64,000 nt of DNA from Actinomycetota bacterium. Lineage in GTDB: Bacteria > Actinomycetota > Acidimicrobiia > Acidimicrobiales > Poriferisodalaceae. The DNA lies in contig JABABU010000027.1 of the NCBI GenBank assembly GCA_014238065.1, forward strand, positions 62,001-126,000, read 5' to 3'. The notes under the pieces were generated by a model that was given only the letters and a program-made list of their open reading frames with translations, was not told the DNA's origin and ran no database searches. A program made the translations under genes and the position numbers. Below, piece after piece: positions 25,373-46,756 of the stretch (position 1 is its first letter; each line of letters opens with the position of its first letter).

Positions 25373-25397
25373 GTTCCGCTGAACGGAACAGCGGCTC
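25373..25397 (+). promoter_or_regulatory. IclR-type operator site C
   Basis: GTTCC-N7-GGAAC-N3-GGCTC: a perfect palindrome core with a degenerate third half-site. It lies 18 bases before the preferred start of the racemase-family gene, about the same distance as site A from its paralogue. Confidence 0.6.
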
Positions 25398-25415
25398 TCC
25401 ATGGCTGAGACGGAC

Positions 25416-26156
25416 ATGTCCGCCGTTGGGCGACGGGGCCGCCTGGGCGTGATCGCGCCCTCGACGAACACCGTCGTCGAACATGATCTGGCCATGATCC
25501 GGCCAGACGGCGTGACCTTCCACACCGGCAGGATGTACATCGAGAACCCCGCGCTCGACAGCGACGAATCCTTCGAGTTGCTGCTTGGTGAGATACGCCA
25601 ATCGATTACCACAGCGATCCGAGACGTCATGACCGCGAAACCGACTCACCTGCTCATGGGAATGAGCGCCGAGACGTTCTGGGGCGGCATCGCAGGGAAC
25701 GCCGCCTTCGAGAAACGGGTGCACGACCAGAGCGGCCTTTCCGTCACAACCGGGGCGCGGTCATGCCGAGATGCGTTGTCAGCGTTCGGTGCCGAACGCA
25801 TCGGAGTGTTCAGCCCATATCAGCCAGTGGCCGACCGACAGGTGTCGGCCTATTTCACCGAAGCCGGATTCGAAGTAGCCGCCGTCACAGGCCTCCGGTG
25901 CGACTCGGCAACGTCCATCGCCGAAGTGCACGAGCCAGAGATCAATCACATCGTGGAGCAGGTTGACGGACCCGATGTCGACGCGATCGTCCAGGTCGGC
26001 ACCAACCTGTCGTTCGTTCGTCAAGCTGCCGCACTCGAGGCGGAACTCGACAAGCCAGTACTGGCCATCAACGTCGCAACCCTGTGGCACGCGCTGCGGA
26101 CGACCGGCATCGACGACCGCATCCACGGGTTCGGGAGGATCCTTGCCGAACACTGA
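25416..26156 (+). CDS. Maleate isomerase / arylmalonate decarboxylase family protein (paralogue)
   Basis: A 246-residue paralogue of the protein at 21393. It shares GVIAPSTNTVVEHDLAMIRP, LLMGMSAETFWGG and ALRTTGIDDRIHGFG. In the second catalytic loop it reads IVQVGTNLSFVRQ: the Cys of the paralogue is Val here, so it may have lost or changed its chemistry. Another Cys lies in GARSCRDAL. The start is set at ATG 25416 because this aligns with the paralogue's N-terminus; ATG 25401 adds five residues. It heads the operon that encodes the LIV-type transporter. Confidence 0.75.
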   Translation: MSAVGRRGRLGVIAPSTNTVVEHDLAMIRPDGVTFHTGRMYIENPALDSDESFELLLGEIRQSITTAIRDVMTAKPTHLLMGMSAETFWGGIAGNAAFEKRVHDQSGLSVTTGARSCRDALSAFGAERIGVFSPYQPVADRQVSAYFTEAGFEVAAVTGLRCDSATSIAEVHEPEINHIVEQVDGPDVDAIVQVGTNLSFVRQAAALEAELDKPVLAINVATLWHALRTTGIDDRIHGFGRILAEH

Positions 26157-27429
26157 CTCCGCACGCGCCACTGGCGAACTACTGATCGACGACATGACAG
26201 ACGCGGAACGCGATCGCGCCCGTAGCGTCGACTCGGTTCTCCCCGCGCTTGCCGCAGCCGCGGCCAGAGCAGACCGACTCGGCGAGTTCCCCGCCGAGCA
26301 CGTCGCAACAGTCTCCGCGGCCGGGTTACTCGGTCTGCTCGTCCCTGAACAATACGGCGGCATGGGGGGCGGGCTTCGTGACCTGTCGGCCGCAACGTTC
26401 GCCATGGCAACGGCATGCGCATCGACGTCACTCGCTTATTTTTTCCAGTGCAGTGGAGCTTCTCGTGGCCTCCTACCCCTCGACGCCATCGAGGCAGGCC
26501 TGTTCCCTGAAGACGACATCGAGTCGGTTCGACACTTCGGCGAACTGGTCCTGCGACGCATGGGTGATGAGGGCCGCTGGGTCGCGAACTTTGCCTCGGA
26601 GTCCGTGCGAACGAAAGGCGCTGCGATCACCATCGCCACAGAAGCCACTCGCACCGACGGCGGATGGGTTCTGAACGGCGTGAAGTCGTTCGGCTGCGCC
26701 ACAGGTGTGGCAGACGACTACCTGGTCACGGCCAAGCTCGACACCGGGGACACTGCCGACCACCTCGCCATCTTCCTCATTCCTCGCGACACGCCAGGTG
26801 TCGGTGAACGCACCAAGTGGGACGCTGTGGGCATGCGCGCCACAGCTACTCACGGCATCGTCCTCGAAAATGCCTTCGTCCCGACCGGTCACGCGCTCAC
26901 GGCCTTCGGCTCGTTCGTGAAGATGACCCAGGTGAGCCGAGGCAGCTTCGTCGGTAACCAGGTAGCGCTGTCGTCGGTGTACATCGGAGCGGCTCAGGCC
27001 GTGTACGACTTCGCCATCGAGTACCTCAGCACCACGACGTATCATGAGTCGAAGGAGGCGATCGGGACGAGTCCCCTTCACAAGCAGCTCATCGGGAAGA
27101 TGCGCGCTCACCTCGACACCGCCTACCTCTGGGCTCGCCGCCAGATCGAACTCGAGACAGCAGTTCCACACATCCTGCCGAAGGACGACGTGGTGGCCAC
27201 ATGGCGGATCGCCAAGGGTGAGATCGCCGACAACTGCTTCCAGGTCGCCGTCCAAGCGTTCAAGGCTTGCGGCACATCGAACACCGGGATGGACGGCATC
27301 ATCTCGCGGTCGCTACGCGACCTCTCGATGGGCCTCGTTCAGGGTTTCCCGGCCGAACGTGGGCGGCTCGAAGCTGCCGAGTACCTGATCGCCGGTCGAG
27401 AAGGCGCACAGTTCGGCACCACAAAATGA
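26143..27429 (+). CDS. Acyl-CoA dehydrogenase superfamily flavoprotein
   Basis: A ~428-residue protein of the acyl-CoA dehydrogenase fold. LVPEQYGGMGGGLRDL is the N-terminal helical signature. WVLNGVKSFGCATGVADDYLV is the beta-domain FAD contact, and VAVQAFKACGTSNTGMDGI the C-terminal helix. The usual catalytic Glu motif (YEGT) is not evident; GFPAERG stands there, so a DszC/HpaB-like flavin monooxygenase is an alternative. TTG 26143 has GGGAGG upstream; ATG 26194 is possible. It belongs to the operator C operon. Confidence 0.8.
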   Translation: MPNTDSARATGELLIDDMTDAERDRARSVDSVLPALAAAAARADRLGEFPAEHVATVSAAGLLGLLVPEQYGGMGGGLRDLSAATFAMATACASTSLAYFFQCSGASRGLLPLDAIEAGLFPEDDIESVRHFGELVLRRMGDEGRWVANFASESVRTKGAAITIATEATRTDGGWVLNGVKSFGCATGVADDYLVTAKLDTGDTADHLAIFLIPRDTPGVGERTKWDAVGMRATATHGIVLENAFVPTGHALTAFGSFVKMTQVSRGSFVGNQVALSSVYIGAAQAVYDFAIEYLSTTTYHESKEAIGTSPLHKQLIGKMRAHLDTAYLWARRQIELETAVPHILPKDDVVATWRIAKGEIADNCFQVAVQAFKACGTSNTGMDGIISRSLRDLSMGLVQGFPAERGRLEAAEYLIAGREGAQFGTTK

Positions 27430-27704
27430 ACCGAATGATCTCTCGACCTTGGTTCGTACCAGGCCTAGCCACCCTCGGCTACCTGGCCGGGTTCAACGAT
27501 GAGGCGCTCCACCTCATCGGCCAGTGGTGGCTCGATCTCGGTCGTTGGGTGCAAACTGCTGTAGTTGTTGTGCTCCTTGGGCTCATCGTCTATCTCGCGG
27601 CAGACCGACTGAAGGAGCGAAGAAGTGCCCACGCCGCAGCTGTCCGTGCGACAGGGGCGTCTCGACCGAACATGCCAACCATCGCCGATGAGGTGTCCAC
27701 ATGA
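27426..27704 (+). CDS. Small membrane protein of the transporter operon
   Basis: A 92-residue protein with one clear membrane helix (WVQTAVVVVLLGLIVYLAA), a weaker N-terminal hydrophobic stretch (WFVPGLATLGYLAGF) and a basic, soluble C-terminus. It is linked by ATGA overlaps to the flavoprotein upstream and the substrate-binding protein downstream. No family recognised. A role as a small subunit or stabiliser of the transporter is a guess from position. Confidence 0.65.
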   Translation: MNRMISRPWFVPGLATLGYLAGFNDEALHLIGQWWLDLGRWVQTAVVVVLLGLIVYLAADRLKERRSAHAAAVRATGASRPNMPTIADEVST

Positions 27705-29059
27705 CCACGCTCACCCGCACCGCGCCGATGTCGGTGCTGATCATCGCGGTAGCTCTGTGTGCTGCTGCCTGCTCACAAGCCGGTGACAGCACCACTTCGA
27801 CGACCACCTCGACCGCTGAAACCACAGCAGCTGGTACAGACGACCTCGTTCGAGCTGGAGCGGACACGCCTGGCGTCACCGACGAGATCATCACCCTCGC
27901 GTTCGTAGTGGTCGACACCTCGAAGGTCGCCGCAGCATTCGGGTGGGACGTGCCAGATGAGGGCGACCGCGTGGCTCAGATCGAGGCGCTCGTCGCTGAC
28001 GCCAACGCCAACGGTGGGATCGCCGGAAGAATGATCGACGCCAAGATCCATGTCTATGACGCCATCACCGACGGCCCAGTCGCCGAAGAGCGTCTCTGCA
28101 ACGCGATCACCCAGGACGACAAGGCTTTCGCGGTGGTGCTTTTCGGCCAGTTCCAAGAGAACGCGAGGCCGTGCTACGCCAACGCCAAGACGCTCATGTT
28201 CGACGCGACGCTGTACCCCATCGACCAGACCGGGTACGACGAACTCGCGCCCTATCTCTGGTCGCCGTTCCTACCGTCCTACGACGACATCGTTTCTGGC
28301 CTCGCCACCGGCCTCATCGACAACGGCTGGTTCGACGAAGCGACTGTCGGCGTCATAGCCATCGAATCCGACCTGAGTCAGCGCGTCTACGACGAGCAAT
28401 TCCTCCCTCGGCTGACCGCAGCCGGCGTCGAGGTCGCGTCGTACAACACCATCGATCCGACCGACGGAACTGCGTTCAACAACGACCAGCTCCAGGCCAT
28501 CGTGAACTTCAAGCAAGCCGGGGTCAACAAGGTCGTCGGGATTGGCGGTTCCCGGCTCGTTTCGTGGTTCATCGATACGTCGATCACGCAGAACTTCGCG
28601 CCCGCCTATGCGATCACCAGCCACGACGCTCCCGAGTTCAACGTCTTCAACTACCCAGAGATGCTCCCCGGCTCGAGCGGAATCTCGGTGCTCCCCGGCT
28701 TCGATGTCAATGACGATCAGTACGCATTCCCCTCCAACGACGCCGAGGCACAATGCCTCGACACGTTCACCGCCGCCGGCCTGCCGTTCGAGAGCCGGGC
28801 GAATGTGAGGAGTGGTCTGTTGTTCTGTGACTCGATCCGACTGCTGACCATCGTCGGCTCTGACCTCGATGAGCTCTCAGCCCAGGGTGTCAGCGAGGCC
28901 ATCTGGCGTCTGGGTGCCGGATTCCAGTCGGCGGCAGCGTACGACGTCACGTTCGAAGAGGGAAGTTATACCGGAGCCAGCGCGTATCACTCGTTCGCTT
29001 TCGACGAGGGCTGTCAATGCATGGCTACGTTCGGCGACACGATGGTCTTTGGCGAGTGA
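27701..29059 (+). CDS. LIV-type ABC transporter substrate-binding lipoprotein
   Basis: A 452-residue lipoprotein: lipobox CAAAC (Cys24), a Thr/Ser-rich linker, then a type I periplasmic-binding fold (ITLAFVVVDTSKVAAAFGWD, RVAQIEALVADANANGGIAG, KTLMFDATLYP, VGVIAIESDLSQ). The pattern NANGGIAGRMID is typical of branched-chain amino acid-type receptors, whose actual ligands are diverse (aromatics, amides, urea). The operon context suggests uptake of the compound degraded by this regulon. The C-terminus holds two Cys (EGCQCMATF). Confidence 0.85.
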   Translation: MTTLTRTAPMSVLIIAVALCAAACSQAGDSTTSTTTSTAETTAAGTDDLVRAGADTPGVTDEIITLAFVVVDTSKVAAAFGWDVPDEGDRVAQIEALVADANANGGIAGRMIDAKIHVYDAITDGPVAEERLCNAITQDDKAFAVVLFGQFQENARPCYANAKTLMFDATLYPIDQTGYDELAPYLWSPFLPSYDDIVSGLATGLIDNGWFDEATVGVIAIESDLSQRVYDEQFLPRLTAAGVEVASYNTIDPTDGTAFNNDQLQAIVNFKQAGVNKVVGIGGSRLVSWFIDTSITQNFAPAYAITSHDAPEFNVFNYPEMLPGSSGISVLPGFDVNDDQYAFPSNDAEAQCLDTFTAAGLPFESRANVRSGLLFCDSIRLLTIVGSDLDELSAQGVSEAIWRLGAGFQSAAAYDVTFEEGSYTGASAYHSFAFDEGCQCMATFGDTMVFGE

Positions 29060-29128
29060 GCGGTCGGTGGCGACACGACACTCGACGAGTGACCGATTCG
29101 TTCGCCACCAGCAGCTGACGGCAATGTC

Positions 29129-31078
29129 GTGACTCGGTTCGGAACATTCGCCCTCGGGCTACATGCCTCGACGGTGGCCATGGTCATCTCCATCCTCGTT
29201 GTCCACCGATCTGACATCAGTGGCGATCTGGGCGCGGTCGACGGCCTCGTTGCCGAGTCGGCCATCTTCGCGGCGGCTGCGCTCGCGGCGGCGGTTGCCG
29301 TTGGTCGCCTTCGTGACATCGTGCCGGCCGGTCTCACCATCTTTGTCGGCGCGATCGTTTCGACCGTCGGCCTCACGCTCATGGCGTGGACCATCGACAT
29401 CACGTGGTTCACCTCGGGAGGCGTCATGGTGGCTGCCGGGGCAGCTCCTGGGCTCGTACTCACGCGAATCCTGATAACGACACACGGCACACGGCACACT
29501 CATCGTCGGCTCGCCGATCGCGTGTGGGCCTCGATCGCACTCGGGGCCGCGACTCCGCTCATCATGGACATGTTGTTCGACATCGCGCCGAGCACGGCGC
29601 TGTGGACGGCGATGGGCGTCTCGTGCCTCGCCGCTGCTTCGCTCGCCCCTCTTGCCCTGTTGCACGACGAAGACGATCATTGCGCCAATTCGATTCGCGC
29701 CTTCGACACCCCATGGATCGTCCGTAGCCGGCTGCTGGCGGTCTCCGCAGGAGGTGCGATCTTCGGCGGTGGGGAGGCGGCCCGACGTCTACTCGAAGGT
29801 GAGTGGCAGCGCAGCCCGACGCAGACCGCTGCCGTGCTCGCCGCGGGACCCCTGGCCGCGGCTGCGGCCACGACACTCGGCCGCTGGTACCACCGCCTCG
29901 ACGACCTCAACGGAAGTCAGCGAGCCGATGCTGTCGGACTTCAGGTGTTCGTGGCAGGGACGGCGGCCACGATCGGCGGACTGTCGTTCACCTACGTCGG
30001 ACTCGTTGTCTCGTGGGCCATTGCGGGAGCTGCCCTTGGGCTCGCGGTTGGCGGCATCGATGCAGCAACGAACTCGTCAGTTCACCCCAGCATGCGACGC
30101 AAGGTCGCAGTTCGGCAGTTGATCGACATTGCCGTCGGGGGCACATTCGCCTCTGTCCTGAACGCGCACGTCATCGGTTCGTGGTCGGATCAATGGAAGA
30201 TCGCCCTCACCGGTGTTCCTCTCGCGCTCGCAGGGTGGGCGATCAGACGGTTCGCAGACCCGGCCAGAACTGAAGACACCGACGAGATGATCGCAACCGC
30301 GACGTCGGTACCGCGCCGAGTACTCAGTTTCGACAACTCACCGATCCCTGCACTCGTAGTCGACTCCCTGGACGTTGCCTACGGATCTGTCCAGGTGCTG
30401 TTCAGTGTCGGTCTCACTGTCGAGGAAGGCCAGATCGTAGCCCTGCTCGGCACCAACGGCGCCGGCAAGACAACTCTGCTGCGAGCTATCTCAGGGCTCG
30501 AGCCCACCATCGGCGGACGAATCATCTACGAGGGACTCGACATCACCCGAACCAGACCGACGTGGCGCGTTGGCATGGGTCTCCATCAGATCGTCGGAGG
30601 GAGCGCAGTTGCCGGTGACCTCACCGTCGCCGAGAATCTACGACTGTTCACCCACCTCGTTCCAGCCGCGGAGCGATCGGCTGCTCTGTCCGAGGCCTAC
30701 GAACTGTTTCCGAGGCTCGCCGAGCGACGCGGTCAGGTGAGCCTGACCTTGTCTGGCGGCGAGAAACAGATGCTCGCCCTCTCGAAGGCGCTGATGCACC
30801 GGCCGCGACTTCTACTGATCGACGAGTTCTCGTTGGGATTGGCACCGACCATCATCGCCGAACTACTTCCCGTCGTTCGTCAGATCGCGGACCGAGGCAC
30901 TGCGATTCTGCTCGTCGAACAATCGGTGAACCTCGCGCTATCGATCGCCGACCATGCCTTCGTCATGGAGAAAGGCTCGATCGGCCACCACGGGCCGGCG
31001 GCCGAGCTGAGGAACCAACCGGATCTCCTCCGGGCCGCTTATCTCGAGGGCCTCCACACGATCGTGGCCGACCACTGA
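29129..31078 (+). CDS. Fusion of MFS-like membrane domain and LivF-type ABC ATPase
   Basis: A 649-residue protein. Residues ~1-385 hold ten or more membrane helices of MFS-like character. Residues ~405-649 form a LivF-type ATPase with Walker A GTNGAGKTT (~440), signature LSGGEKQ (~540), Walker B LLLIDE (~560) and a LVEQSV switch where other ABC proteins have His. It should power import with the permease-ATPase fusion that follows; the stop/start overlap is ATGA. The membrane domain's purpose is unclear: it could be an extra channel or a membrane anchor. Confidence 0.83.
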   Translation: MTRFGTFALGLHASTVAMVISILVVHRSDISGDLGAVDGLVAESAIFAAAALAAAVAVGRLRDIVPAGLTIFVGAIVSTVGLTLMAWTIDITWFTSGGVMVAAGAAPGLVLTRILITTHGTRHTHRRLADRVWASIALGAATPLIMDMLFDIAPSTALWTAMGVSCLAAASLAPLALLHDEDDHCANSIRAFDTPWIVRSRLLAVSAGGAIFGGGEAARRLLEGEWQRSPTQTAAVLAAGPLAAAAATTLGRWYHRLDDLNGSQRADAVGLQVFVAGTAATIGGLSFTYVGLVVSWAIAGAALGLAVGGIDAATNSSVHPSMRRKVAVRQLIDIAVGGTFASVLNAHVIGSWSDQWKIALTGVPLALAGWAIRRFADPARTEDTDEMIATATSVPRRVLSFDNSPIPALVVDSLDVAYGSVQVLFSVGLTVEEGQIVALLGTNGAGKTTLLRAISGLEPTIGGRIIYEGLDITRTRPTWRVGMGLHQIVGGSAVAGDLTVAENLRLFTHLVPAAERSAALSEAYELFPRLAERRGQVSLTLSGGEKQMLALSKALMHRPRLLLIDEFSLGLAPTIIAELLPVVRQIADRGTAILLVEQSVNLALSIADHAFVMEKGSIGHHGPAAELRNQPDLLRAAYLEGLHTIVADH

Positions 31079-33840
31079 TGGGCAGTTATGACGTCTCGTC
31101 GCCACTGGTTCTTCTTGGCCTGATCTTCGGGACCGGCTACTCGCTGCTCGGCATCGGGCTTGTGCTCGCCTATCGATCCAGCGGGTTCATCAACTTCGCG
31201 CACGGGGCGACGGGACTGTTCACGGCTTCAATGATGTCGGTTGTCGTCCGCGACTACGGGGTGCCGTACTGGTTGGGGTTCCTCGGCGCCTTGGTTGCAG
31301 CCGCATGCATCGGGGCCGCGCTCGAAGTGGTGATCGTGAGAAAGCTGAGCGGTTCGCCGAAAGTGTTGGCCATGGTCGCAACGCTCGGCACAGGCCAGGC
31401 ATTGCTACTACTCGCGCTGTCGTTCTCAGGCGGCGGACTCGGAGGCGGCAATTTTCCTCAGCCACCGTGGTTCCCGGATTTCGACCTTGATGCATACGTC
31501 TCACCTTCTGCGACAGCGCTCCTCGTGCTCTCGCCGATTGTGGTCGTCGGGCTCTACCAGTTCCTGCAGCGGTCGAGATTCGGACTGGCGATCCGGGGCG
31601 CAGCATCCAACCCCGACGCGGCCACACTCGCCGGCGCAGATCCGCACTACCTGGCGATGCTCTCATGGGCGCTGGCTGGAGCCATCGCCGCGTTTGCCGC
31701 CATGCTCATCATCCCGAATCAGAGTACCGTCACGCCAGACACGCTCGGCCCCGACTTCATCATCCGAGGTCTCGCCGTCGCCGCGCTCGCTCGATTCGCG
31801 AACCTTCCCGTTGCCCTTGCTGCCGGTCTCGGAATTGGTGTCGCAGAGCAGCTCATCGCAACGAATCCCGACAGTTCCGGCTATTTCGAAGTGCTGCTCT
31901 TCGCTCTGATCTTGGTTGGCGTAGCACGCACGTTCTCTTCGCCACGCGAAGAAACCGAACCGTGGACCACAGTCTCGACAGCAGACCGTCTGCCCGATGA
32001 ATACCTCGACATCTGGCTCATCAGACACCTCGGCTGGGTTGCGGCAGCGGTCGCGTTGGTCGCCGCGATCCTGATACCGATCTGGGCCAGCAACGAGTCG
32101 GCTTTCATCTGCTCGACGGTGCTCGCGTTCGCGATCATCGCGATGTCAATCAGCTTCCTCACAGGACTTGGTGGACAGCTCTCCCTCGGCCAGGTCGGGT
32201 TCGCAGCCATCGGGGCGGTGGCAGCGGTCGAGGTCTCGTCGCGTTTCGGCACACTCATCGGCGCCATGCTGGTGTCAGCGGTCGTGGGCGCTGCTGTTTC
32301 GGCGGCGGTAGGGTTACCGGCTCTCCGGGTCAGGGGGTTGCTCCTCGCCGTGGCGACGCTGGCGTTTGCTCTCGTCACGTCTTCGTGGCTCCTCCGTCAG
32401 GACTGGGCATTCGGCGCTGGTGCTTCGACGCGGCCCATCACTTTGCTCGGGTCCGAACTCGAGACGTCACGCGGGTACTACTACGTGGCGCTCGGATCGT
32501 TCGTGGTCGTCGCCACGCTTGCGACCATCGTTCGCCAATCGTCCATCGGCCGTCACCTCATCGCTGTTCGCGACAACGACAACGCTGCCCGCGTGTTTCA
32601 GATCGCGAGTCGGCGAACGTTGCTCGGTACCTACGCCCTCGCTGGAGCCATCGCCGGGGTCGGCGGCTCAGTGCTGGCGTTCAACAACACGTTCGTGAGT
32701 CGGGCGATATTCACGCCGTCGGCCAGTGTCGACGTCGTTGCGATCGCCGTCGTGGGCGGACTTGGCGAACTCATGGGCCCACTGCTGGGTGCCGCATACC
32801 TGATCGGTATCCCTGAGTTCTTCGACCTCGAACTCTCGGCCCTCGCCGGTCTCAATGCAGCCTGGCTGATTCTGATCCTCGAGCAACCGCGGGGACTGGT
32901 GGGCCTCTTCTCCTCGACGAAGCGCCATGTCATCGATGCCATCGCCCGGCTGCACGGCGTCACGGTCACCGATGACATCGAACCGGTTGCCACTCCCGCC
33001 ACCTCAGCGCTCTCCTTGCAACCGGCGTCAGCACCCCAAGCCGACCAGTCCGGTCAGCCGCTTCTCGAGGTCATCACACTCACCCGAAACTTCGGCGATC
33101 TGATGGCAGTCGACAACGTTACGTTCAAGGTTGCAAGGGGCGAGACACTCGGACTCATCGGTCCGAACGGGGCGGGAAAGACGACGTTGTTCGAGCTCGT
33201 CAGTGGCTTCATCAAGCCCGACGTAGGACGCGTCATCTACGACGGTGCCGACATCACCTCGCTCTCCCCAGAGGCACGTAGCCGACTCGGACTGGTGCGA
33301 TCGTTCCAGAACGCCACGCTGTTCCCTACGATGACCCCCCTTCAGGTCGCGATGATGGCCACCCAAGCGGCCACTCGTCGGCGGCTGGTGCTGGCCGGCG
33401 GGGCCGCTGAGCGCTCGATGGAGAAGTCGGCGACGGAGACACTCGCTGCCTTTGGCCTCGGCGAGATCGCCGACGAGCCGATCTCACAGCTCCCGACAGG
33501 GACAAGACGTCTCGTCGAGCTGGCCGCGAACGTTGCGCTGCAGCCCCGACTCCTCTTGCTCGATGAACCCTCAGCCGGCATCGCGCAGGCCGAGACGGAG
33601 GCACTTGGTGCTGCCATCATGTCGATTCGAGACAGCTTCGACATTACGATCGTCGTGATCGAGCACGACATGCCTCTCCTGACGTCGATCTGTGAACGCA
33701 TGATCGCGCTCGAGGTCGGCGCCATCATCGCCGAAGGCACTCCTCACGAGATCCAGCGCCATGAGGCGGTCGTCAGGAGCTACCTGGGTACCGACACCGA
33801 CGCGATCGCAAAGTCAGGCCCCGTCGACCTCCGCGAATAG
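31078..33840 (+). CDS. LivH-LivM-LivG fusion: ABC permease/permease/ATPase
   Basis: A 920-residue single-chain core of a LIV-type importer. Residues ~1-290 are LivH-like (LAYRSSGFINFAHGATGLF). Residues ~320-605 are LivM-like (FLTGLGGQLSLGQVGFAAIG, AVRDNDNAARVFQI). Residues ~660-905 are LivG-like, with Walker A GPNGAGKTT (~695) and Walker B LLLLDEPSAG. The LivG signature is degenerate (LPTGTRRLVEL in place of LSGGQ), so the LivF domain of the preceding protein may supply the canonical site. The end overlaps the convergent SDR gene by 27 bases. Confidence 0.88.
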   Translation: MGSYDVSSPLVLLGLIFGTGYSLLGIGLVLAYRSSGFINFAHGATGLFTASMMSVVVRDYGVPYWLGFLGALVAAACIGAALEVVIVRKLSGSPKVLAMVATLGTGQALLLLALSFSGGGLGGGNFPQPPWFPDFDLDAYVSPSATALLVLSPIVVVGLYQFLQRSRFGLAIRGAASNPDAATLAGADPHYLAMLSWALAGAIAAFAAMLIIPNQSTVTPDTLGPDFIIRGLAVAALARFANLPVALAAGLGIGVAEQLIATNPDSSGYFEVLLFALILVGVARTFSSPREETEPWTTVSTADRLPDEYLDIWLIRHLGWVAAAVALVAAILIPIWASNESAFICSTVLAFAIIAMSISFLTGLGGQLSLGQVGFAAIGAVAAVEVSSRFGTLIGAMLVSAVVGAAVSAAVGLPALRVRGLLLAVATLAFALVTSSWLLRQDWAFGAGASTRPITLLGSELETSRGYYYVALGSFVVVATLATIVRQSSIGRHLIAVRDNDNAARVFQIASRRTLLGTYALAGAIAGVGGSVLAFNNTFVSRAIFTPSASVDVVAIAVVGGLGELMGPLLGAAYLIGIPEFFDLELSALAGLNAAWLILILEQPRGLVGLFSSTKRHVIDAIARLHGVTVTDDIEPVATPATSALSLQPASAPQADQSGQPLLEVITLTRNFGDLMAVDNVTFKVARGETLGLIGPNGAGKTTLFELVSGFIKPDVGRVIYDGADITSLSPEARSRLGLVRSFQNATLFPTMTPLQVAMMATQAATRRRLVLAGGAAERSMEKSATETLAAFGLGEIADEPISQLPTGTRRLVELAANVALQPRLLLLDEPSAGIAQAETEALGAAIMSIRDSFDITIVVIEHDMPLLTSICERMIALEVGAIIAEGTPHEIQRHEAVVRSYLGTDTDAIAKSGPVDLRE

Positions 33841-34620
33841 ATCGCGCTTGTTGAACGCCGCTGTCATGAATCGGCGGCTCGCCTTGCGGCGTGTCAGCCA
33901 AGCAATCCGTGCCCCGGAAGTGTCGGCGGCGAGCACCTGGTCGGCGAGCCAAGGAGTCACGGTGTGGACGTCATCGCCCAGGATGTTGAAGATCTTTTTC
34001 GCCTTCTCCCATTGCTCGGACGTGAGGTCGTAATCGCCGACCAAAAGGTCCGTCACGACGATTCCTGGCGAGAGCGTGCATATCTGGACCGGCGTGTCGG
34101 CCGTGTCCTTTCGCAGTGCCTTCTGCATGTAACGAACTGCCCGCTTGGTTGAGCCGTATGCGGCCATTCCTGCCTGCGTCGCACCGTCGGAACCGAAGCC
34201 TTCGGTATTCCACAGCTGACCGTGTCCCTGATCGAGCATGTTGGTGATCGCAACCTTCGATGCGAGAAGTGCACCGGTGATGTTGGTGCCCACGACGGCT
34301 TCGATCGCCTCGTCGCTCTGCTTCCACAGCGGTTTACGCTCGATCGACATGCCGGCGTTGTTGATCCACACATCGACGCCACCGAACTTCTCCGAAGCGA
34401 CGTCCCAGACCCCTTGGAGCTGCGACGAGTCGGTCACATGACAGACCGAACCGGCGACACGACCTTCGCCGTAGTAGCCGCCGAGTTCGGTGACAGCAGC
34501 CGCCACCGACGACTCAGACCGCCCGGTGATTGTGACCTGGCACTCTCGTTTCAGAAACTCACGGGCCAGCCCGTTGCCGATTCCTCGGGTTCCGCCCGTG
34601 ATGACGACTCGTTTGCTCAT
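33814..34620 (-). CDS. Short-chain dehydrogenase resembling chlorophyll b reductase (NYC1/NOL)
   Basis: A 268-residue classical SDR: TGGTRGIG (8-15) binds NAD(P), NNAG (87-90), catalytic Tyr155 and Lys159 in AAYGSTKR. Beyond the generic motifs, it shows features I associate with plant NYC1/NOL: LAREFLK, VWINNAG, GFGSDG before the active Tyr, LSPGIVVTDLL, then a FNIL segment and a WLTRRKASRRF-like tail. Those enzymes reduce chlorophyll b to 7-hydroxymethyl chlorophyll a. The match is from memory, not a search. It is the last gene of a leftward operon with a serine hydrolase and a Dabb protein. Confidence 0.75.
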   Translation of the reverse strand: MSKRVVITGGTRGIGNGLAREFLKRECQVTITGRSESSVAAAVTELGGYYGEGRVAGSVCHVTDSSQLQGVWDVASEKFGGVDVWINNAGMSIERKPLWKQSDEAIEAVVGTNITGALLASKVAITNMLDQGHGQLWNTEGFGSDGATQAGMAAYGSTKRAVRYMQKALRKDTADTPVQICTLSPGIVVTDLLVGDYDLTSEQWEKAKKIFNILGDDVHTVTPWLADQVLAADTSGARIAWLTRRKASRRFMTAAFNKRDLFAEVDGA

Positions 34621-34641
34621 GTCTTGGCTCCAGCCACGCCG

Positions 34642-35559
34642 TCAGCGCCTTGTGAAATTCTGTACGCCGCCGTGATCGGCGAACCCATCGAGGGTCTGAC
34701 CGTCCACGAACGTACAGATGATGTCGGCGAGCAGATCGCGCGCCTCGACATCGTCACCGCGCAGATCAGGCTCGAGAAATGCTCGTCCGGTGGTCTCGTC
34801 GATCGGGTCACACATGGTGAAGTGGTTGCCGTCGACCAACTCGATGAGATACGAGTCGTCGTCGTGTCGGTCAATTGCCTCATCGAAGGTTCGGCGTACC
34901 GGATTGTGTTCGCCTTCGTCGGATCGGTAGCGGTCGCGACTGGCGGCGATGACTGCGTCGGACCCACCACATACAAGCAGCACCGGAACCGCCGAGGGCA
35001 CCGCAACCACCGCAGTTTCACCGTGGCCGAGCGCCGTGGCCGTCATCGTGTGAGCGCCGTAGACGGCGACTGATCTGAGCCCGGGAATCCATGCGGGATT
35101 GGTGTTGTGCAAGGCAACTGTTCCGCCTGCCGAGTGTCCGACCAGCGACACTGCTGCGAGATCGCACACGTCAGATCCGACGTCAGCAAGTGCAACGAGG
35201 AGAGGATTGATGGCCGACGCTGAGCATCGTGTTCCGACGACGCCGGGAGCGAGGGCCATCATGTCGAGACCTGGTGTTATGCCAACGCCGGCAGGTCCGA
35301 GTTCACCGATGGTCGAGTAGGTCACAGCACAGTTGCCGGCCTCGACGAGCCGAACCGCCAGCCATCGGTACCCGTCGGGGGCAACGTTGATGCCGGGCAT
35401 GATCAACACTGTCGGACGAGGAGGCTCATCGATGGGTGGCACTTCACCTGTGAGCCGTGCCTCTTCCATTCGTTCGTCGTCCGCGGCGTAAAAGAGCGTG
35501 CCGACTCCTGCCTCGGACTCCGGAGCGTCGAACGCGAAGTGGCGGCCTCTGACGATCAC
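34642..35559 (-). CDS. Serine alpha/beta hydrolase (chlorophyllase-like architecture)
   Basis: A 305-residue hydrolase. TVLIMPGINVAPDGYRWLA provides the oxyanion region, VSLVGHSAGGTVAL holds the nucleophile Ser143, LLVCGGSD a likely acid-strand Asp, and ELVDGNHFTMCD the catalytic His. GTG 35559 was chosen as the start because it overlaps the Dabb stop (GTGA). It precedes the NYC1-like SDR by 21 bases. Removal of phytol or another ester from a tetrapyrrole is an inference from neighbours; a general lipase or dienelactone hydrolase is the alternative. Confidence 0.8.
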   Translation of the reverse strand: MIVRGRHFAFDAPESEAGVGTLFYAADDERMEEARLTGEVPPIDEPPRPTVLIMPGINVAPDGYRWLAVRLVEAGNCAVTYSTIGELGPAGVGITPGLDMMALAPGVVGTRCSASAINPLLVALADVGSDVCDLAAVSLVGHSAGGTVALHNTNPAWIPGLRSVAVYGAHTMTATALGHGETAVVAVPSAVPVLLVCGGSDAVIAASRDRYRSDEGEHNPVRRTFDEAIDRHDDDSYLIELVDGNHFTMCDPIDETTGRAFLEPDLRGDDVEARDLLADIICTFVDGQTLDGFADHGGVQNFTRR

Positions 35560-35843
35560 GAAGCGGCGGTGTAATCGATGGTCGTCGCCGCTGACATCAG
35601 GTCGAGAACAACCGCCCTGACTTCGAGGTGGACCGCATCTGATTCGTAGGCGTGGTAGGCCTCGAGATCTGTCCACGTCGTCGTGAGCGCAATGTCGGCC
35701 GAGTAGGCGCCGGCCAACTCGTTGACATCGACCCGCAGGTCGATCATCCCGTCGACCTTGCCCCTCATCGACTCCATGACGTCTTGGCAGCGTTTGGAAG
35801 TCCGAGGATCGGCGAGGCTGACGAGAACGGTGTGTACATGCAT
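35556..35843 (-). CDS. Dabb (A/B-barrel) domain protein
   Basis: A 95-residue single-domain protein starting MHVHTVLVSLADPRTS, with GMIDLRVDVNELAG, ALTTTWTDLEAYHAYESDAVH and a conserved His-x-E pattern. This is typical of the stress-responsive dimeric A/B-barrel family, which includes EthD-like and heme-degrading relatives. It is first in the leftward operon and shares the divergent region containing operator G. It may bind or process a small hydrophobic intermediate. Confidence 0.78.
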   Translation of the reverse strand: MHVHTVLVSLADPRTSKRCQDVMESMRGKVDGMIDLRVDVNELAGAYSADIALTTTWTDLEAYHAYESDAVHLEVRAVVLDLMSAATTIDYTAAS

Positions 35844-35866: not shown

Positions 35867-35891
35867 GTTCCGCTTGGGGGAACAGGGTTTC
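35867..35891 (+). promoter_or_regulatory. IclR-type operator site G
   Basis: GTTCC-N7-GGAAC-N3-GTTTC, one of the two best matches, in the 79-base divergent region. It is oriented toward the rightward lipocalin-like operon, but the palindromic core could also serve the leftward SDR operon. Confidence 0.72.
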
Positions 35892-35922: not shown

Positions 35923-36381
35923 GTGAACAGCGTCAACCGCGACTACGGACCCGCCAGCCCCCGCCCATACCAGTGCTTCATGGGTCGATGGGAGGGATTG
36001 TGTAAGAGCTTCACGCCTGATGGCCAGTTCCTCGATGCCTCAGCGGTCCACATGGACGTCTATTGGCTCGACGAGCAGACGTGGCACCTCCATGAGCACT
36101 TCGAGAACCTCTACGAGGTCGGCGAGACGACCTACGACACTCCGATCTCGGTCGACGGAAAGCGGTGCTGGGCGACGAGCGACATGATCAACCTGAATGG
36201 CACAGAACTCACGGCCTTCAACTACGTGTTCACGATCGATTCTGCTGTCAGCGGCACCATCGTCTACAACAACCACTACTTCATCGACACCGACACGCGG
36301 CGAATCATCACGCACAAGGTTCGGGACGGCGCCACGCACCTCTTCCAGATCCAGGACTTCGTAAGGATTCAGCGACCATGA
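35923..36381 (+). CDS. Lipocalin-like (GxW) single-domain protein 1
   Basis: A 152-residue protein with one predicted beta-barrel. FMGRWEGLCKSFTPDGQF contains the GxW start motif of calycins. Alternating strands follow (HMDVYWLDEQTWHLHEHFE, AFNYVFTIDS, TIVYNNHYFI). It has no signal peptide, so it is cytoplasmic. Several His/Trp/Tyr residues line the predicted barrel. It heads the rightward operon under operator G. A carrier or enzyme for a tetrapyrrole or similar hydrophobic compound is my inference. Confidence 0.65.
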   Translation: MNSVNRDYGPASPRPYQCFMGRWEGLCKSFTPDGQFLDASAVHMDVYWLDEQTWHLHEHFENLYEVGETTYDTPISVDGKRCWATSDMINLNGTELTAFNYVFTIDSAVSGTIVYNNHYFIDTDTRRIITHKVRDGATHLFQIQDFVRIQRP

Positions 36382-37190
36382 TCGTGCAGAGCAGTTCCCC
36401 TGATGGCACCCACTTCGTCATCGCCATGCAACAGCACACCACGTTCGCTGGACAACTCGCCGCCCACTTCGGCAACGACGACTTCGCGGCCATCGCACCC
36501 GCCGAGCCGATGCAGTTCATCGTCGACAACCACGATGCCGGATGGGCCAACCTCGATACCGAAGCGCCCCAGAGCTCCGAAACCGGTCTTCCCTACAACC
36601 TCACGGCGACACCCTTGCCACAAATCATCAGCACCAGTGCCGGCTCACCGGCACTGAACGAGGAGCACCACCCGTTCTCTGGGATCATCTCGTCGATGCA
36701 CACATACGGGTTGTATACCGGCCGCTACGGACTGTCGGACAAGATCTTCCTCGACGCAATCCCCGCTGACCTTCGGCCAAGCGTCGACGGGATGCTCGCC
36801 GCCGAAAGTGACCGACAGGAGCGTCTCAAGGGCGTGCTGGCCCTCTCTGATCCCGACTATGCCTCGGACGACTTCTTGTTCCACGCATACAAGCAACTGC
36901 AGTTCTTCGACACCCTGTCGCTCTACTTCCACATGACACCGGAGGGCGAACGAGGAGAGGCCGAATTCCTCAACGTTCCACGGTCGGTCGGCGACGACGT
37001 GTCGATCACGGTCACTGAGCTCGGTAACGGTCATTACGATGTGACGCCATTTCCTTTCGACACCGATGGACTCACCGTCGGTACCGAGGGCCGCTATCTC
37101 GCGCCGCAGGAGTCAGGAACACCGCTGCCAGGCGTGCTGGCCACCACTGCTGTCTCCGAACAGGTCGTCACGCTCACCGGCGCTTCATGA
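36378..37190 (+). CDS. DUF3891 family protein
   Basis: A 270-residue protein beginning MIVQSSSPDGTHFVIAMQQH, with HTTFAGQLAAHFG and VDNHDAGW, the His/His-Asp residues of the DUF3891 family, plus HHPFSGIISSMHTYGLYTGRYG. The H...HD pattern suggests a metal-dependent helical (HD-like) fold. Function unknown. It is coupled by ATGA overlaps to lipocalin-like genes on both sides, so it probably acts on the same compound. A hydrolase or de-chelating role would be speculative. Confidence 0.72.
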   Translation: MIVQSSSPDGTHFVIAMQQHTTFAGQLAAHFGNDDFAAIAPAEPMQFIVDNHDAGWANLDTEAPQSSETGLPYNLTATPLPQIISTSAGSPALNEEHHPFSGIISSMHTYGLYTGRYGLSDKIFLDAIPADLRPSVDGMLAAESDRQERLKGVLALSDPDYASDDFLFHAYKQLQFFDTLSLYFHMTPEGERGEAEFLNVPRSVGDDVSITVTELGNGHYDVTPFPFDTDGLTVGTEGRYLAPQESGTPLPGVLATTAVSEQVVTLTGAS

Positions 37191-38116
37191 CCGCGGGCGG
37201 GACAAAGGGCTCCCTTTCCAAGGGCAGTTTCTCCAAGGGAGTCGGCCAGTGGATCGGTGCCGCTGAAGTCTTCGACGGCGACGGCCAGTTCTGCGGACAC
37301 GGACGAGACGAACGCACGGTCGTGGCCGACGACGGCGCGGGAAGCGTGAGCGTCGAAGTCAGCTTCGAGGGGCCCTTCGCACTCGCCGGCAACTACACCA
37401 TCGTCGACGGAGGTGACCACCGGCGTTACGAGGGGCCACTGAATCACGGGTACGCCGAAGTTCTCGGCGATGGCCTCGTCACGGCCAACAACTACTGGCC
37501 TGACCTGGGCCTCTCACAGCGGTTCTTCCTGATGGTGCTACCCGGCAACTCGACACAGCTGTCTCTCGCGCTCATCAGCCGCGGCGACAGAGCCCGCTGG
37601 ACCGTTGCCGGCGAATACCGGCGCCAAGTCGACACAGGAGAGCCAACCCCACTTGCTCATGTGCCGATCGACCCTGGCTCCGTTCGCAACGATGCGACCG
37701 CCGGACGTGGCGAGGTCATGTTTCATCGGGAAGGGCGGTGGGTCGGCGCGCTGACACACCTCGACGGCAACCTCGGCGACCCAAAGAGTGACGACTACAC
37801 CGAAGTCGTAGAGTCGAACGGAGACAGCGTCCACCGCTCGATTCAGGGGAGCCGGTTCGTCGCCGACCACAACTTCATTTCGAACACCGATGGATGGTCG
37901 GAATGGTGTCCGACCGGCGGTGTTGTCGGCAGCGCATCGCTCTGGGGTGGCAGAGCCCGCTCGGGTCAGCTGATCCATCAAGCCAGCGGGCTTCGGGTCT
38001 GGACACGAAACATCACCACACTCGATGGCACGATCAGAGCCGTGGTCGACACCTGGTTCCGTGGCGAGGATCGCATTGGCGCGACGTTCGGCGTGCTGAC
38101 CTTCGAGCCGGCATGA
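37187..38116 (+). CDS. Lipocalin-like (GxW) two-domain protein 2
   Basis: A 309-residue protein with two similar barrels. Domain 1 starts VGQWIGAAEVFDGDG (Trp22); domain 2 starts REGRWVGALTHLDGN. Both have a G-x-W-x-G opening and a DG turn, as in the neighbouring proteins. Domain 1 also has YEGPLNHGYAEV and NNYWPDLGLSQRF, paralleling YLGPD and HYYSP in the related protein at 39582. No signal peptide or enzyme motif is present. Overlaps upstream and downstream genes by ATGA. Confidence 0.65.
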   Translation: MTAGGTKGSLSKGSFSKGVGQWIGAAEVFDGDGQFCGHGRDERTVVADDGAGSVSVEVSFEGPFALAGNYTIVDGGDHRRYEGPLNHGYAEVLGDGLVTANNYWPDLGLSQRFFLMVLPGNSTQLSLALISRGDRARWTVAGEYRRQVDTGEPTPLAHVPIDPGSVRNDATAGRGEVMFHREGRWVGALTHLDGNLGDPKSDDYTEVVESNGDSVHRSIQGSRFVADHNFISNTDGWSEWCPTGGVVGSASLWGGRARSGQLIHQASGLRVWTRNITTLDGTIRAVVDTWFRGEDRIGATFGVLTFEPA

Positions 38117-38790
38117 GCGATGCGACGCCCCGGGACGACTTCGATGGCGCGTGGATGGTCAAGGAATACGTCCACGATCCTGGCGGTGAGCTGATCGGAA
38201 CAGTTTCACAGCGACGCCTCGTCGAACCAGCTGACACCGATCGGTTTCGCGTGACACAGCACTGCTCCGTCTCTGACGAACTCCGCGATCACCCGATGAT
38301 TCGGTTCGAGGGCACGTGGATGTTCGACCTCGCAATCGAAGGAGCACAGCGCCACTACCTCGGCCCTGATGTCATCGGTATGGGAACCCAGTGGGCTCCT
38401 GGAGCAATGACTGGCGTCGGCCAGTGGCCCAGGTTCGGTCACGATTTCGAGTCCTATGCCGTCCTCATCGCCCCAGATCGGCAGCTGACCGGTGGCTTCT
38501 TCTCGACCGCCGGCCAGTCATTCGTTGACATCATCGGCATAGCCGTGCCAGAGGTACTCGGCGTCGAACCGCAGCTGGAACTCACCGCAGGAGCCCCCGA
38601 TCTCGACCGCGACGCCTGGCCCGTTCAGCGGGCCGTTGGGCCCATGCGCATCGGAACAGCACAAGCGACCCCGAACCTACGCCGTCGATGCTGGACGATG
38701 CATGACGTGCTCGGGGGTTCAACCATCACGATCGTCGAGACCGTTGATGCCGGTGGCGTGTCGACCACCATCACCGCTCAGCCGAACTGA
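38113..38790 (+). CDS. Lipocalin-like (GxW) protein 3
   Basis: A 225-residue protein with an opening FDGAWMVKEYVHDPGGEL (GxW) and a strand pattern RHYLGPDVIGMGTQWAPGAM, which matches the YLGPD element of the related protein at 39582. The C-terminal part may be a partial second barrel (RRRCWTMHDVLGGSTITIVE). It ends the rightward operon, one base before the convergent VOC gene. Function inferred only by association. Confidence 0.62.
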   Translation: MSDATPRDDFDGAWMVKEYVHDPGGELIGTVSQRRLVEPADTDRFRVTQHCSVSDELRDHPMIRFEGTWMFDLAIEGAQRHYLGPDVIGMGTQWAPGAMTGVGQWPRFGHDFESYAVLIAPDRQLTGGFFSTAGQSFVDIIGIAVPEVLGVEPQLELTAGAPDLDRDAWPVQRAVGPMRIGTAQATPNLRRRCWTMHDVLGGSTITIVETVDAGGVSTTITAQPN

Positions 38791-38791: not shown

Positions 38792-39589
38792 TCATCTCGC
38801 CGGCCTGACATCGATCACCACTCCGCCTGGCGAGACCATCCTGTGCGGAGACGCGTCCCGAACGGTGAACCCGACCGCCTGAATCCCTGCCAGATCAGCG
38901 CCTGCAAAGTCGGCACCATCGTGACCGACGAACCTCAACAGCTCGAACCGGATGGGGTCGTTGGCAGCGTTTGCGAACATCACCATCTCGAGTTCGATCG
39001 TGGTATCCGGCAGACACATGAACGCGGCCACTTCTGAGGAGCCGAAAGCCAAGTCCATCCCACGGGTTGCGCCGCGGTCTTCCCACCATGGCGCTTCGGC
39101 AGCTCGATCTGCGACTGCCCACACCAGGCTGTGGATCTGCGAGTGAAGTTCGTCGGCGTTGTCGTCCAGGAGGCTCGCTCGACGACTCGGACTTTCGATG
39201 AGCACGACCGGGACGTGGTCGGGACCCCAGATCGTGACTTGACGCATCGAGAACGGTCCGATGTCGATCGTGGCGATAGGGCCGGGATCGCCCCCGGCGA
39301 CCACGGCTCGCTCGACGCTCTCCTCCATCGCAGTCGTGTAGATGTCGAGACCGCGGGGCCCAAGGTCGTAGCCGGTGAGTCGAGATCCCTCCTTCGCCTC
39401 GCTCAACACCAACTCGGTCGGGTGCCCAGAACCGCGGCCCATCGTGACTGAGTCGGCGTCTGCGGCTTCGACGCCGAAGTCGAACGCCCCGAAGAAGCGG
39501 ACCGTGGCGTCGATGTTGGTGGTCCCGATCACCACATGGCTGGCCGACCCGAACACGGCTGAAGAGCCGACTGGCCACTGCTCAGTCAT
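38792..39589 (-). CDS. VOC (glyoxalase/bleomycin-resistance fold) protein
   Basis: A 265-residue protein of two paired beta-alpha-beta-beta-beta modules: ASHVVIGTTNIDATVRFFGA opens the first, GVVIDVRPA closes the last. The second half contains CLPDTTIELEMVMFAN. Possible metal ligands include His18 in ASHVV and a Glu in ELEMVMF. The VOC fold covers extradiol dioxygenases, glyoxalases and epimerases. It is last in the leftward operon with the Rieske oxygenase and RCC-reductase-like genes, overlapping its predecessor by 8 bases. Confidence 0.78.
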   Translation of the reverse strand: MTEQWPVGSSAVFGSASHVVIGTTNIDATVRFFGAFDFGVEAADADSVTMGRGSGHPTELVLSEAKEGSRLTGYDLGPRGLDIYTTAMEESVERAVVAGGDPGPIATIDIGPFSMRQVTIWGPDHVPVVLIESPSRRASLLDDNADELHSQIHSLVWAVADRAAEAPWWEDRGATRGMDLAFGSSEVAAFMCLPDTTIELEMVMFANAANDPIRFELLRFVGHDGADFAGADLAGIQAVGFTVRDASPHRMVSPGGVVIDVRPAR

Positions 39590-40517
39590 CCGCCGCCCAG
39601 GTCAGCGGGCCGAACACGAAGTCGGTGAGCTGATCACCCCACGAGATCTTCCATGCAACGGCCATCGTGTGATCGCGGTCGATGAAGAACTCGCGACCCT
39701 TCACTTTCCATGGCTCCTTGCAGTGATGTTGGGTCGTGTACAACGCCCTGCCGTACCCAATGGCATTGCCGAACAGGTCGGGCCCCTCGTAGGTGTGGCG
39801 ATTCGAGTTGCGGGTACGCGTGTAGGTGAACCTCCGATCGATGGATCCACCAAGCGTCCAGGTGTGGGTCGCCCGAACGAGGTCGATCGGTTCGTGGCGT
39901 ATGGACACCTCGACTTCACCCTTGCGCTCCTGATCGGGGCCATAGACCTCGCACACGCCTTTCCAACTTCCAGCGGTGCGGTCTGGCAGCACGTGCGGGA
40001 GGGTGGCCATCTCGCGTTCGGCCTCGAGAAACGCGTCGATGCGGGCCTTGGTGTCCGGATTCGTGTCGTAATCGTGAGCGTTCTGGTACACGCCGTTGAA
40101 GACCGAGAACAGTGTCGGGCCCTCGTACAGCAGCGAGGAGTACACCTGGGTGATCCCGTCGGGAAGGATCTGGTTGAGCGTGTTGAGATCGGCTCGCCAC
40201 GCCGGCGAGTAGTAATGCGAGTCGACGATGGAGCCGTACGGATGGCCACCACCGAAGAAGTCGGGGCCGAGGTAGATGCGATTCGCACCCTGGTCGTCGA
40301 CACCGAACGCGAAGTTGTTGATCTCGAATCGGTTACGCAGCGGACCCGTGTTCATGAAGTTGCAGTGCATGTAATAGGTGGTGATGCCGTCCTCAAACAC
40401 TGAGGACCGGTTGACCTTGTTGAAGCCGGTGTGGCCTCCTTCTGCGTCGAACACTGACGGAATGCCGTACCACTCACCGGTGATTCGCTGTTGCCATTCG
40501 CTGACTTCTTCGCTCAC
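39582..40517 (-). CDS. Lipocalin-like (GxW) two-domain protein 4
   Basis: A 311-residue protein with two barrels. Domain 1 opens ITGEWYGIPSVFDAEGGHTG and contains YLGPDFFGGGHPYG and HYYSPAWRADL. Domain 2 opens TAGSWKGVCEVYGPDQER and contains YEGPDLFGNAIGYGRAL. Both repeats share GxW-x-G and a Y-x-G-P-D-x-F-G strand, so a duplication is likely. No signal peptide. It lies directly after an RCC-reductase-like gene in the operator D operon, linking this domain family to the oxygenase genes. Confidence 0.68.
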   Translation of the reverse strand: MSEEVSEWQQRITGEWYGIPSVFDAEGGHTGFNKVNRSSVFEDGITTYYMHCNFMNTGPLRNRFEINNFAFGVDDQGANRIYLGPDFFGGGHPYGSIVDSHYYSPAWRADLNTLNQILPDGITQVYSSLLYEGPTLFSVFNGVYQNAHDYDTNPDTKARIDAFLEAEREMATLPHVLPDRTAGSWKGVCEVYGPDQERKGEVEVSIRHEPIDLVRATHTWTLGGSIDRRFTYTRTRNSNRHTYEGPDLFGNAIGYGRALYTTQHHCKEPWKVKGREFFIDRDHTMAVAWKISWGDQLTDFVFGPLTWAADD

Positions 40518-42371: not shown

Positions 42372-42378
42372 CGTGATG

Positions 42379-43191: not shown

Positions 43192-43265
43192 CGTCTCCTC
43201 ATGGCCTTCGAGTCCAGTGTTCAACAATCCCAGTATCCAAAAAACCAGTACCCGACAAACTCAGT

Positions 43266-46724: not shown

Positions 46725-46756
46725 GCTCGGCCGACCATCGGGGCCCGAGAGCGCTC

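Follow-up and report, generated by a model that had tools for sequence, protein, structure and literature searches.

A candidate gene cluster for chlorophyll breakdown, with an NYC1/NOL-family reductase and a red chlorophyll catabolite reductase homologue, in non-photosynthetic bacteria

The window analysed here is a whole stretch of 64,000 nucleotides (nt) from a member of the Actinomycetota, order Acidimicrobiales (assembly GCA_014238065.1, contig JABABU010000027.1, positions 62,001 to 126,000). It encodes a short-chain dehydrogenase/reductase (SDR) of NYC1/NOL type and, seven kilobases away within the same regulon, a homologue of red chlorophyll catabolite reductase (RCCR). Mapping the window genes onto eight further genomes delimited a conserved block of ~36 kb with abrupt ends (about 21.3–57.3 kb); the cluster is found in these eight related genomes and is absent from most others. 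The genes central to this study, with lengths in amino acids (aa), are as follows.

33814–34620, minus strand: NYC1/NOL-family short-chain reductase, 268 aa (PF00106, 128 bits); predicted formyl-chlorophyll(ide)/pheophorbide b reductase
34642–35559, minus strand: alpha/beta hydrolase with a chlorophyllase/polyethylene terephthalate (PET)-hydrolase-like fold, 305 aa; predicted dephytylation or ester hydrolysis
35556–35843, minus strand: Dabb protein, optional member (PF07876, 37.2 bits, cut-off 25)
40519–41265, minus strand: second RCCR-superfamily paralogue (p248); no Pfam family; hhalign against the RCCR alignment 97%, E 1.2e-10
41229–42440, minus strand: Rieske non-haem iron oxygenase of VanA_C type (PF00355, 76.3 bits; PF19112, 98.6 bits)
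42379–43227, minus strand: RCCR homologue (PF06405, 55.2 bits, cut-off 24.9)
45767–46594, minus strand: IclR regulator (PF01614/PF09339), candidate reader of the operator described below

Pfam and NCBIfam resolve the window SDR no further than generic classical SDR, and 60 SDR matches occur in the window's own genome; a tree was therefore needed to settle its family. The plant rows of the tree and search were provisional, non-database versions of the catalytic domains of Arabidopsis NOL, rice NOL and Arabidopsis NYC1, whose mutual identities (82% and 43–45%) agree with the published family average of 48.1% (PMC3541173); for comparison, 25 generic SDRs were taken from the genome to which the window belongs. 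The provisional sequences match the cluster SDRs over their full length at 132–168 bits, compared with 75 bits for the best generic paralogue, and the similarity of the window-type SDR to them is 33–38%, again full length. The first-pass annotation had named a phylogeny against NYC1, NOL and generic SDRs as the check on its proposal, and the window SDR falls with the provisional NOL/NYC1 rows, outside all 25 generic SDRs, in one clade (support 100/100) that also holds the cluster SDRs, a second Paraglaciecola SDR and SDRs of gut Firmicutes. The cluster SDRs alone form a clade (97/94), and the provisional plant sequences join the second SDR of Paraglaciecola with weak support (85/76). Among viral contigs, a search for authentic NOL sequences returned nothing better than a 36-residue match.

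A second line of evidence comes from the active-site motif. The cluster SDRs and NOL/NYC1 replace the classical N-x-[SA]-S with N-x-[DE]-G-x-G-[SA], one residue longer, such that a glycine occupies the usual catalytic serine position while YxxxK is retained. The window SDR reads N-T-E-G-F-G-S plus YGSTK, fitting the family motif N-x-[DE]-G-[AFY]-G-[SA] with YxxxK; a few relatives' rows deviate slightly (at the N or D/E position), and none of the generic paralogues shown carries the motif. The sequence features that had first suggested a plant-type chlorophyll b reductase are all present as described: TGGTRGIG from residue 8 followed by LAREFLK, GFGSDG (as part of WNTEGFGSDG, from residue 137), YGSTK at residue 155 in the AAYGSTKR region, LSPGIVVTDLL, and FNIL...RRKASRRF. 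Judged by its motif and by its place in a tree with provisional plant rows, the window SDR is a member of the NYC1/NOL family. A generic SDR identity was rejected on tree placement and the serine-less motif.

The RCCR homologue matches PF06405 over profile positions 6–251 of 253. Its best match in the PDB is to the Arabidopsis RCCR structures (E 6e-9), which a 17-member profile finds at E 8e-20; further hits of this profile are a plastid bilin reductase at E 2e-7 and, at E 0.0018, phytochromobilin synthase. In the alignment, Asp291 of Arabidopsis RCCR (AtRCCR) corresponds to an invariant aspartate, D249, the AtRCCR numbering being deduced from chain position 175, where 3aga and 3agb differ (Phe/Val). 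Both Asp291 and the important Glu154 are substrate-contact acids of AtRCCR. The best PDB hit of p248 is also RCCR (E 0.024), and p248 has a relative at 49% identity in a Thiotrichales cluster. Separately, p248 (40519–41265) is a candidate new family of bilin-type reductases.

Between the RCCR and p248 genes sits the Rieske gene, whose product has intact motifs (C-x-H-x(n)-C-x2-H from residue 70 and D..H....H at residue 186). Among named families, the protein comes closest to the O- and N-demethylase, SxtT and methylsterol oxygenase types. Membership of the PaO family was rejected as the C-terminal half is VanA_C, not PaO; the protein is therefore a functional counterpart of PaO at most. The RCCR homologue and the Rieske oxygenase within the regulon of the SDR, which the first-pass annotation had not mentioned, constitute the strongest evidence for a role in chlorophyll breakdown.

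The SDR and RCCR are linked in three separate bacterial lineages, with almost perfect co-occurrence. Among 248 genomes sampled from the order, PF06405 was detected in 10 (and in 0 of 14 control genomes), and the window SDR (E up to 1e-30) in nine, all of them among the 10 RCCR-positive genomes. This gives nine genomes with both, one with RCCR only, none with the SDR only and 238 with neither (Fisher 1e-15, kinship ignored). The exception (G055) has RCCR, the Rieske oxygenase, p248 and a conserved 311-aa protein of the block, and lacks the SDR, the hydrolase and their neighbours. Both Thiotrichales genomes and Paraglaciecola hydrolytica, found via the SDR (62, 61 and 58% identity), carry RCCR. 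In the Alteromonadaceae, RCCR occurs in 5 of 147 sampled genomes, in two copies each, and an SDR at 57–60% identity is present in 5/5 RCCR-positive genomes vs 0/13 sampled RCCR-negative ones (Fisher 1e-4, kinship ignored). G207 and the genome of L005 have identical RCCR coordinates; they are probably one genome and not to be counted twice. No RCCR was found on plasmids. Chance co-location was rejected given synteny and co-occurrence in three lineages, and an assembly artefact is unlikely because the same cluster is present in the single-contig genomes G208 and G273.

Two further sets of NYC1/NOL-like SDRs were observed. Beside RCCR in 4/5 Alteromonadaceae carriers (L069/L137, P. hydrolytica; L127–L129) lies a second such SDR, reminiscent of the plant NYC1 and NOL pair. 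More distant SDRs (36–43% identity) occur in metagenome-assembled genomes of gut Clostridia and Bacilli, largely from the rumen or ruminant guts (L010–L033), and RCCR was found in 0/24 of these gut Firmicutes genomes. These SDRs perhaps handle dietary chlorophyll b derivatives anaerobically, or act on another substrate.

The SDR gene is accompanied by the hydrolase gene, the pair being kept in every examined Acidimicrobiia cluster that has the SDR and enough flanking sequence. The GHSAGG elbow noted earlier is indeed present, from residue 141. An operon of SDR, hydrolase and Dabb protein had also been proposed; all three genes are present in that order, with the Dabb and hydrolase genes overlapping by 4 nt, but the Dabb protein is no constant partner across clusters and recurs outside the window at loci of three other genomes (L003; L002/L044; L047). 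The window hydrolase matches no Pfam family at cut-off, including the Chlorophyllase models PF07224/PF12740. One orthologue (L044) passes the PETase model PF12740 (32.5 vs cut-off 28), and the Paraglaciecola cluster hydrolase (L009:728–1765) passes the Chlorophyllase model PF07224 (43.5 bits vs cut-off 26). A structural model built from 11 orthologues reached a predicted local distance difference test score (pLDDT) of 82.7 and a predicted template-modelling score of 0.88, compared with a pLDDT of 34 for the single-sequence model, and its best structural match (VIA) is wheat chlorophyllase 8fjd (Z 22.3 over 241 residues). Predicted fold and neighbourhood together speak for hydrolysis of a large lipophilic ester, for which chlorophyll or pheophytin would be the likeliest candidate.

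A shared operator ties these genes together. The palindrome GTTCCGCTTGGGGGAAC lies at 35867–35883, between the SDR operon and the lipocalin-like operon, which starts divergently at 35923, just as the first reading had described around its "operator G". A search with GTTCCGCTNAGCGGAAC (≤3 mismatches) gave eight matches in the 64-kb window vs 0.43 expected, a number reached in 0/100 shuffles, and all eight sites fall within 21.3–46.8 kb. Seven are in promoter gaps (21353, 23405, 25373, 35867, 43266, 46607 and 46720) and one is intragenic (40679). The site recurs at the same SDR–lipocalin gap in most orthologous clusters, which have matching palindromes at corresponding gaps; G052 has zero mismatch at two gaps. 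The IclR protein probably reads this operator. Further sites from the GTTCCGCTNAGCGGAAC search, none with a strand, are listed below.

21353–21369: left-most operator, regulon start
25373–25389: operator upstream of Amdase 1
43266–43282: operator between the RCCR operon and the HpcH/HpaI gene, conserved; the true start of the latter gene probably lies downstream of it
46607–46623 and 46720–46736: two operator-like sites in the gap between the IclR and coenzyme A (CoA) transferase genes

The remaining genes of the block encode an importer, four conserved family-less proteins that are lipocalin-like by eye, and enzymes that would be fit to degrade ring fragments of dialkylmaleate type.

21420–22139, plus strand: Amdase/maleate-isomerase-like protein 2, resembling 25401–26156; start approximate
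22129–23373, plus strand: flavin adenine dinucleotide-binding monooxygenase (PF01494, 165 bits), 40–67% identity across clusters
24107–25345, plus strand: SBBP beta-propeller-repeat protein (PF06739), conserved
25401–26156, plus strand: Amdase/maleate-isomerase-like protein of the Asp/Glu racemase superfamily (PF17645, 80.4 bits), conserved at 55–73%
26182–27429, plus strand: acyl-CoA dehydrogenase family, conserved at 69–81%
27701–33840, plus strand: ATP-binding cassette (ABC) importer of branched-chain-amino-acid type, comprising a binding protein, a LivF fusion and a LivH-M-G fusion
35923–36381, plus strand: conserved 152-aa G-x-W protein, lipocalin-like by eye; no Pfam family; 74–80% identity across clusters
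36378–37190, plus strand: DUF3891 protein (PF13030, 115.8 bits), conserved at 56–70%
37187–38116, plus strand: conserved 309-aa protein related to the 311-aa protein; no Pfam family
38107–38790, plus strand: conserved 227-aa protein; no Pfam family
38792–39589, minus strand: glyoxalase/VOC-like protein (weak), optional
39582–40517, minus strand: conserved 311-aa protein; no family; 48–50% relatives in two gammaproteobacterial clusters
43251–44138, plus strand: HpcH/HpaI lyase (PF03328) related to RipC/Ccl and CitE; RipC 142 bits, below cut-off
44208–45770, minus strand: carbon-nitrogen hydrolase (amidase; PF00795, 121 bits); 36–37% relatives in gammaproteobacterial clusters
46736–47983, plus strand: CoA transferase family III (PF02515), related to succinate-glutarate/mesaconate CoA transferases, below cut-offs
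47980–48786, plus strand: putative cyclase/hydrolase (PF04199)
48783–50219, plus strand: MmgE/PrpD family hydratase (PF03972, PF19305)
50216–53904, plus strand: hydantoinase/oxoprolinase B and A, also in G052, absent from other clusters
53901–54491, plus strand: isochorismatase-family amidase 1, also in G052, absent from other clusters
54483–55409, minus strand: HMG-CoA-lyase-like protein (PF00682; PRK05692, 334.8 bits, cut-off 246)
55415–56611, plus strand: CoA transferase family III no. 2, conserved at 63–81%
56617–57252, plus strand: isochorismatase-family amidase 2, conserved at 62–78%

Two of the importer genes are fusions: the product of 29129–31078 is LivF with an N-terminal membrane region of weak major facilitator superfamily (MFS) resemblance, and that of 31078–33840 combines LivH, LivM and LivG in one chain. 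The 311-aa protein has no relative in the PDB even at E up to 1, and no relationship between it and the 152-aa protein was detectable. Among the clusters, only those of the window genome and G052 contain the inserted segment 50216–54491 (hydantoinase B/A and isochorismatase). Beyond the block conservation ceases: to its left lie MFS and molybdenum-enzyme genes, to its right genes of the AMP ligase, DUF1330, Ldh2, M24 and epimerase types. Also outside the conserved block, at 11634–13520, a phytanoyl-CoA-dioxygenase-family gene is followed by a 2-oxoglutarate-Fe(II) oxygenase gene.

The gammaproteobacterial loci hold a recognisable version of the same core, with the Rieske oxygenase (36–37% identity), RCCR copies (29–47%), relatives of the 311-aa protein (48–50%), p248 (49%) and the amidase (36–37%), and a hydrolase relative (41%) between the Rieske and RCCR genes. 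They add rubredoxin/reductase and MFS genes. Their end-of-pathway genes differ from those of the window, comprising Amdase-like proteins, a lyase of the PrpB/phosphoenolpyruvate (PEP)-mutase family and a LeuCD-type hydratase (L130–L138); the LeuC beside RCCR is an extra copy in 3/3 genomes checked. Dimethylmaleate degradation in nicotinate fermentation uses a hydratase and a lyase of the LeuCD and PrpB types, dimethylmaleate hydratase and dimethylmalate lyase. As the pyrrole rings of chlorophyll should yield dialkylmaleimides on fragmentation, this makes the hypothesis of a downstream ring-fragment pathway attractive. By this analogy, the gammaproteobacterial hydratase, lyase and Amdase-like genes represent a candidate dialkylmaleate pathway.

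We consider it likely that the cluster serves the inducible uptake and catabolism of chlorophyll or pheopigments from dead algae by a non-photosynthetic heterotroph. Starting from the observed genes, their families and homologies, the common operator and the cross-phylum link between RCCR and NYC1/NOL, we infer the substrate, every reaction and the reaction order as follows. The ABC importer and lipocalin-like proteins would take up and hold the pigment, and the hydrolase would cut an ester, either phytyl or C13-2 methyl. The NOL-like SDR would convert the C7 formyl group of b-type pigments to hydroxymethyl, by which all pigment could enter an a-type route. The Rieske oxygenase would then open the macrocycle, in place of plant PaO, and RCCR and its paralogue p248 would reduce the red linear product. 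Further oxidation may yield lactam or maleimide fragments, which amidases, Amdase/maleate-isomerase-like enzymes, CoA transferases, the PrpD-type hydratase and HpcH/HMGL lyases may channel into central metabolism; these last two stages, fragment formation and fragment degradation, are the least certain. More tentative, and in our estimate somewhat short of an even chance, is a complete bacterial route from chlorophyll to central metabolism via dialkylmaleimide/dialkylmaleate that would exist in Acidimicrobiia, Alteromonadaceae and Thiotrichales and may be connected with the source of plant NYC1/NOL and RCCR.

Several observations weigh against the proposed pathway. The Glu154 equivalent is apparently not conserved in the RCCR homologue (A123), and the Rieske protein has no match to the PaO C-terminal domain PF08417, with PF19112 in its place. 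PET hydrolases and cutinases follow directly behind chlorophyllase as structural matches of the hydrolase model (Z 21.4–22.0 over about 216 residues), which amounts to a tie, and Foldseek alone puts them first. The Mg-dechelatase SGR (PF12638) was detected in 0/16 cluster genomes in a search without a control signal. Mg-free pheopigments are common in detritus, and these would need no SGR. No FrhB-family (HCAR) domain was seen among the scanned cluster genes, whole genomes not having been searched for FrhB. Finally, bilin reductases belong to the RCCR superfamily, which leaves room for a different bilin as the linear substrate.

The last point leads to an alternative that we regard as unlikely, namely breakdown of a different tetrapyrrole (haem-derived bilins, phycobilins or bacteriochlorophyll) by the cluster, with the RCCR-type proteins acting as bilin reductases and the SDR reducing some other tetrapyrrole carbonyl. 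RCCR and the ferredoxin-dependent bilin reductases do form one superfamily, both found by our profile, and bilin reductases exist in heterotrophs (PMC10151467); however, plant RCCR scores far better (E 8e-20) than the bilin reductases. Haem breakdown is not known to involve an NYC1/NOL-type SDR, an ester hydrolase or a Rieske oxygenase, and the Pfam scan of cluster genes revealed no haem oxygenase. Bacteriochlorophyll is a possible substrate of the cluster. It is similarly improbable, in our assessment, that the cells detoxify photosensitising pigments for photoprotection and do not feed on them. Linearisation of pheophorbide serves this purpose in plants, and a dedicated phytol pathway was not identified among the scanned cluster genes, but one cluster and one operator unite the importer with several amidases, CoA transferases, a hydratase and lyases, which fits nutrient use. 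Very unlikely is the degradation of an unrelated algal or plant compound (sterol, carotenoid or aromatic) by a recruited SDR, hydrolase and RCCR-fold protein, given that chlorophyll-specific RCCR and NYC1/NOL co-occur almost perfectly in three lineages, even though the SDR and hydrolase come from very large superfamilies and the Rieske protein is nearest to demethylase, SxtT and methylsterol oxygenase types. Turnover of the cells' own photosynthetic pigment was rejected, as no photosynthetic reaction-centre gene (Photo_RC) was found in 20 cluster genomes by a search that detected the Synechococcus positive control.

Chlorophyll is made and destroyed yearly in vast amounts, and the enzymatic route of its breakdown is known mainly from plants. 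If chlorophyll catabolism is indeed the function of the cluster, RCCR, the NOL-like SDR and the Rieske oxygenase would together provide marker genes for microbial pigment turnover in the sea and in sediment, bacterial RCCR and NOL homologues that at present lack an explanation could be given a role, and a bacterial origin of the plant chlorophyll-breakdown genes would become testable. The question is directly approachable in P. hydrolytica S66, a named strain that carries a cluster itself.

RCCR homologues are known in some cyanobacteria (PMC2716323), and RCCR, including sequences from Candidatus Schekmanbacteria, has served as an outgroup of bilin reductases (PMC10151467). Among the open-access papers searched, none was found to describe a bacterial gene cluster for chlorophyll catabolism, or one joining NYC1/NOL, RCCR and a ring-opening oxygenase. 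SGR homologues occur in non-photosynthetic bacteria, where their physiological role is unknown (PMC8531759); they resemble the present case as a chlorophyll-breakdown family in such bacteria, but SGR removes Mg, a different step. Like the dialkylmaleate branch of nicotinate fermentation, the gammaproteobacterial loci have an extra LeuCD-type hydratase and a PrpB/PEP-mutase-family lyase, whereas the Acidimicrobiia use CoA transferase, PrpD, HpcH and HMGL types. With the NYC1/NOL chlorophyll b reductases the window SDR shares full-length similarity, the serine-less N-x-[DE]-G-x-G-S and YxxxK; unlike NYC1, it has no transmembrane extension and sits in a catabolic cluster. The window RCCR homologue likewise agrees with plant and cyanobacterial RCCR (PF06405) in its full-domain match above the curated cut-off and its invariant Asp291 equivalent, and differs in the apparent Ala at the Glu154 equivalent, a different conserved neighbourhood and a remote paralogue beside the Rieske gene. 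Set against the plant PaO/phyllobilin pathway as a whole (NYC1/NOL, HCAR, SGR, PPH/CLH, PaO and RCCR), the common elements are an NYC1/NOL-family reductase, an RCCR homologue, a hydrolase of chlorophyllase- or PET-hydrolase-like fold and a Rieske oxygenase, which suggests that the cluster may be the chlorophyll-breakdown pathway known from plants in a bacterial, catabolic form. It departs from the plant pathway in its VanA_C Rieske protein, the RCCR paralogue, the added importer, the lipocalin-like proteins and the ring-fragment genes, and in that the window genes are clustered under one operator, in non-photosynthetic bacteria.

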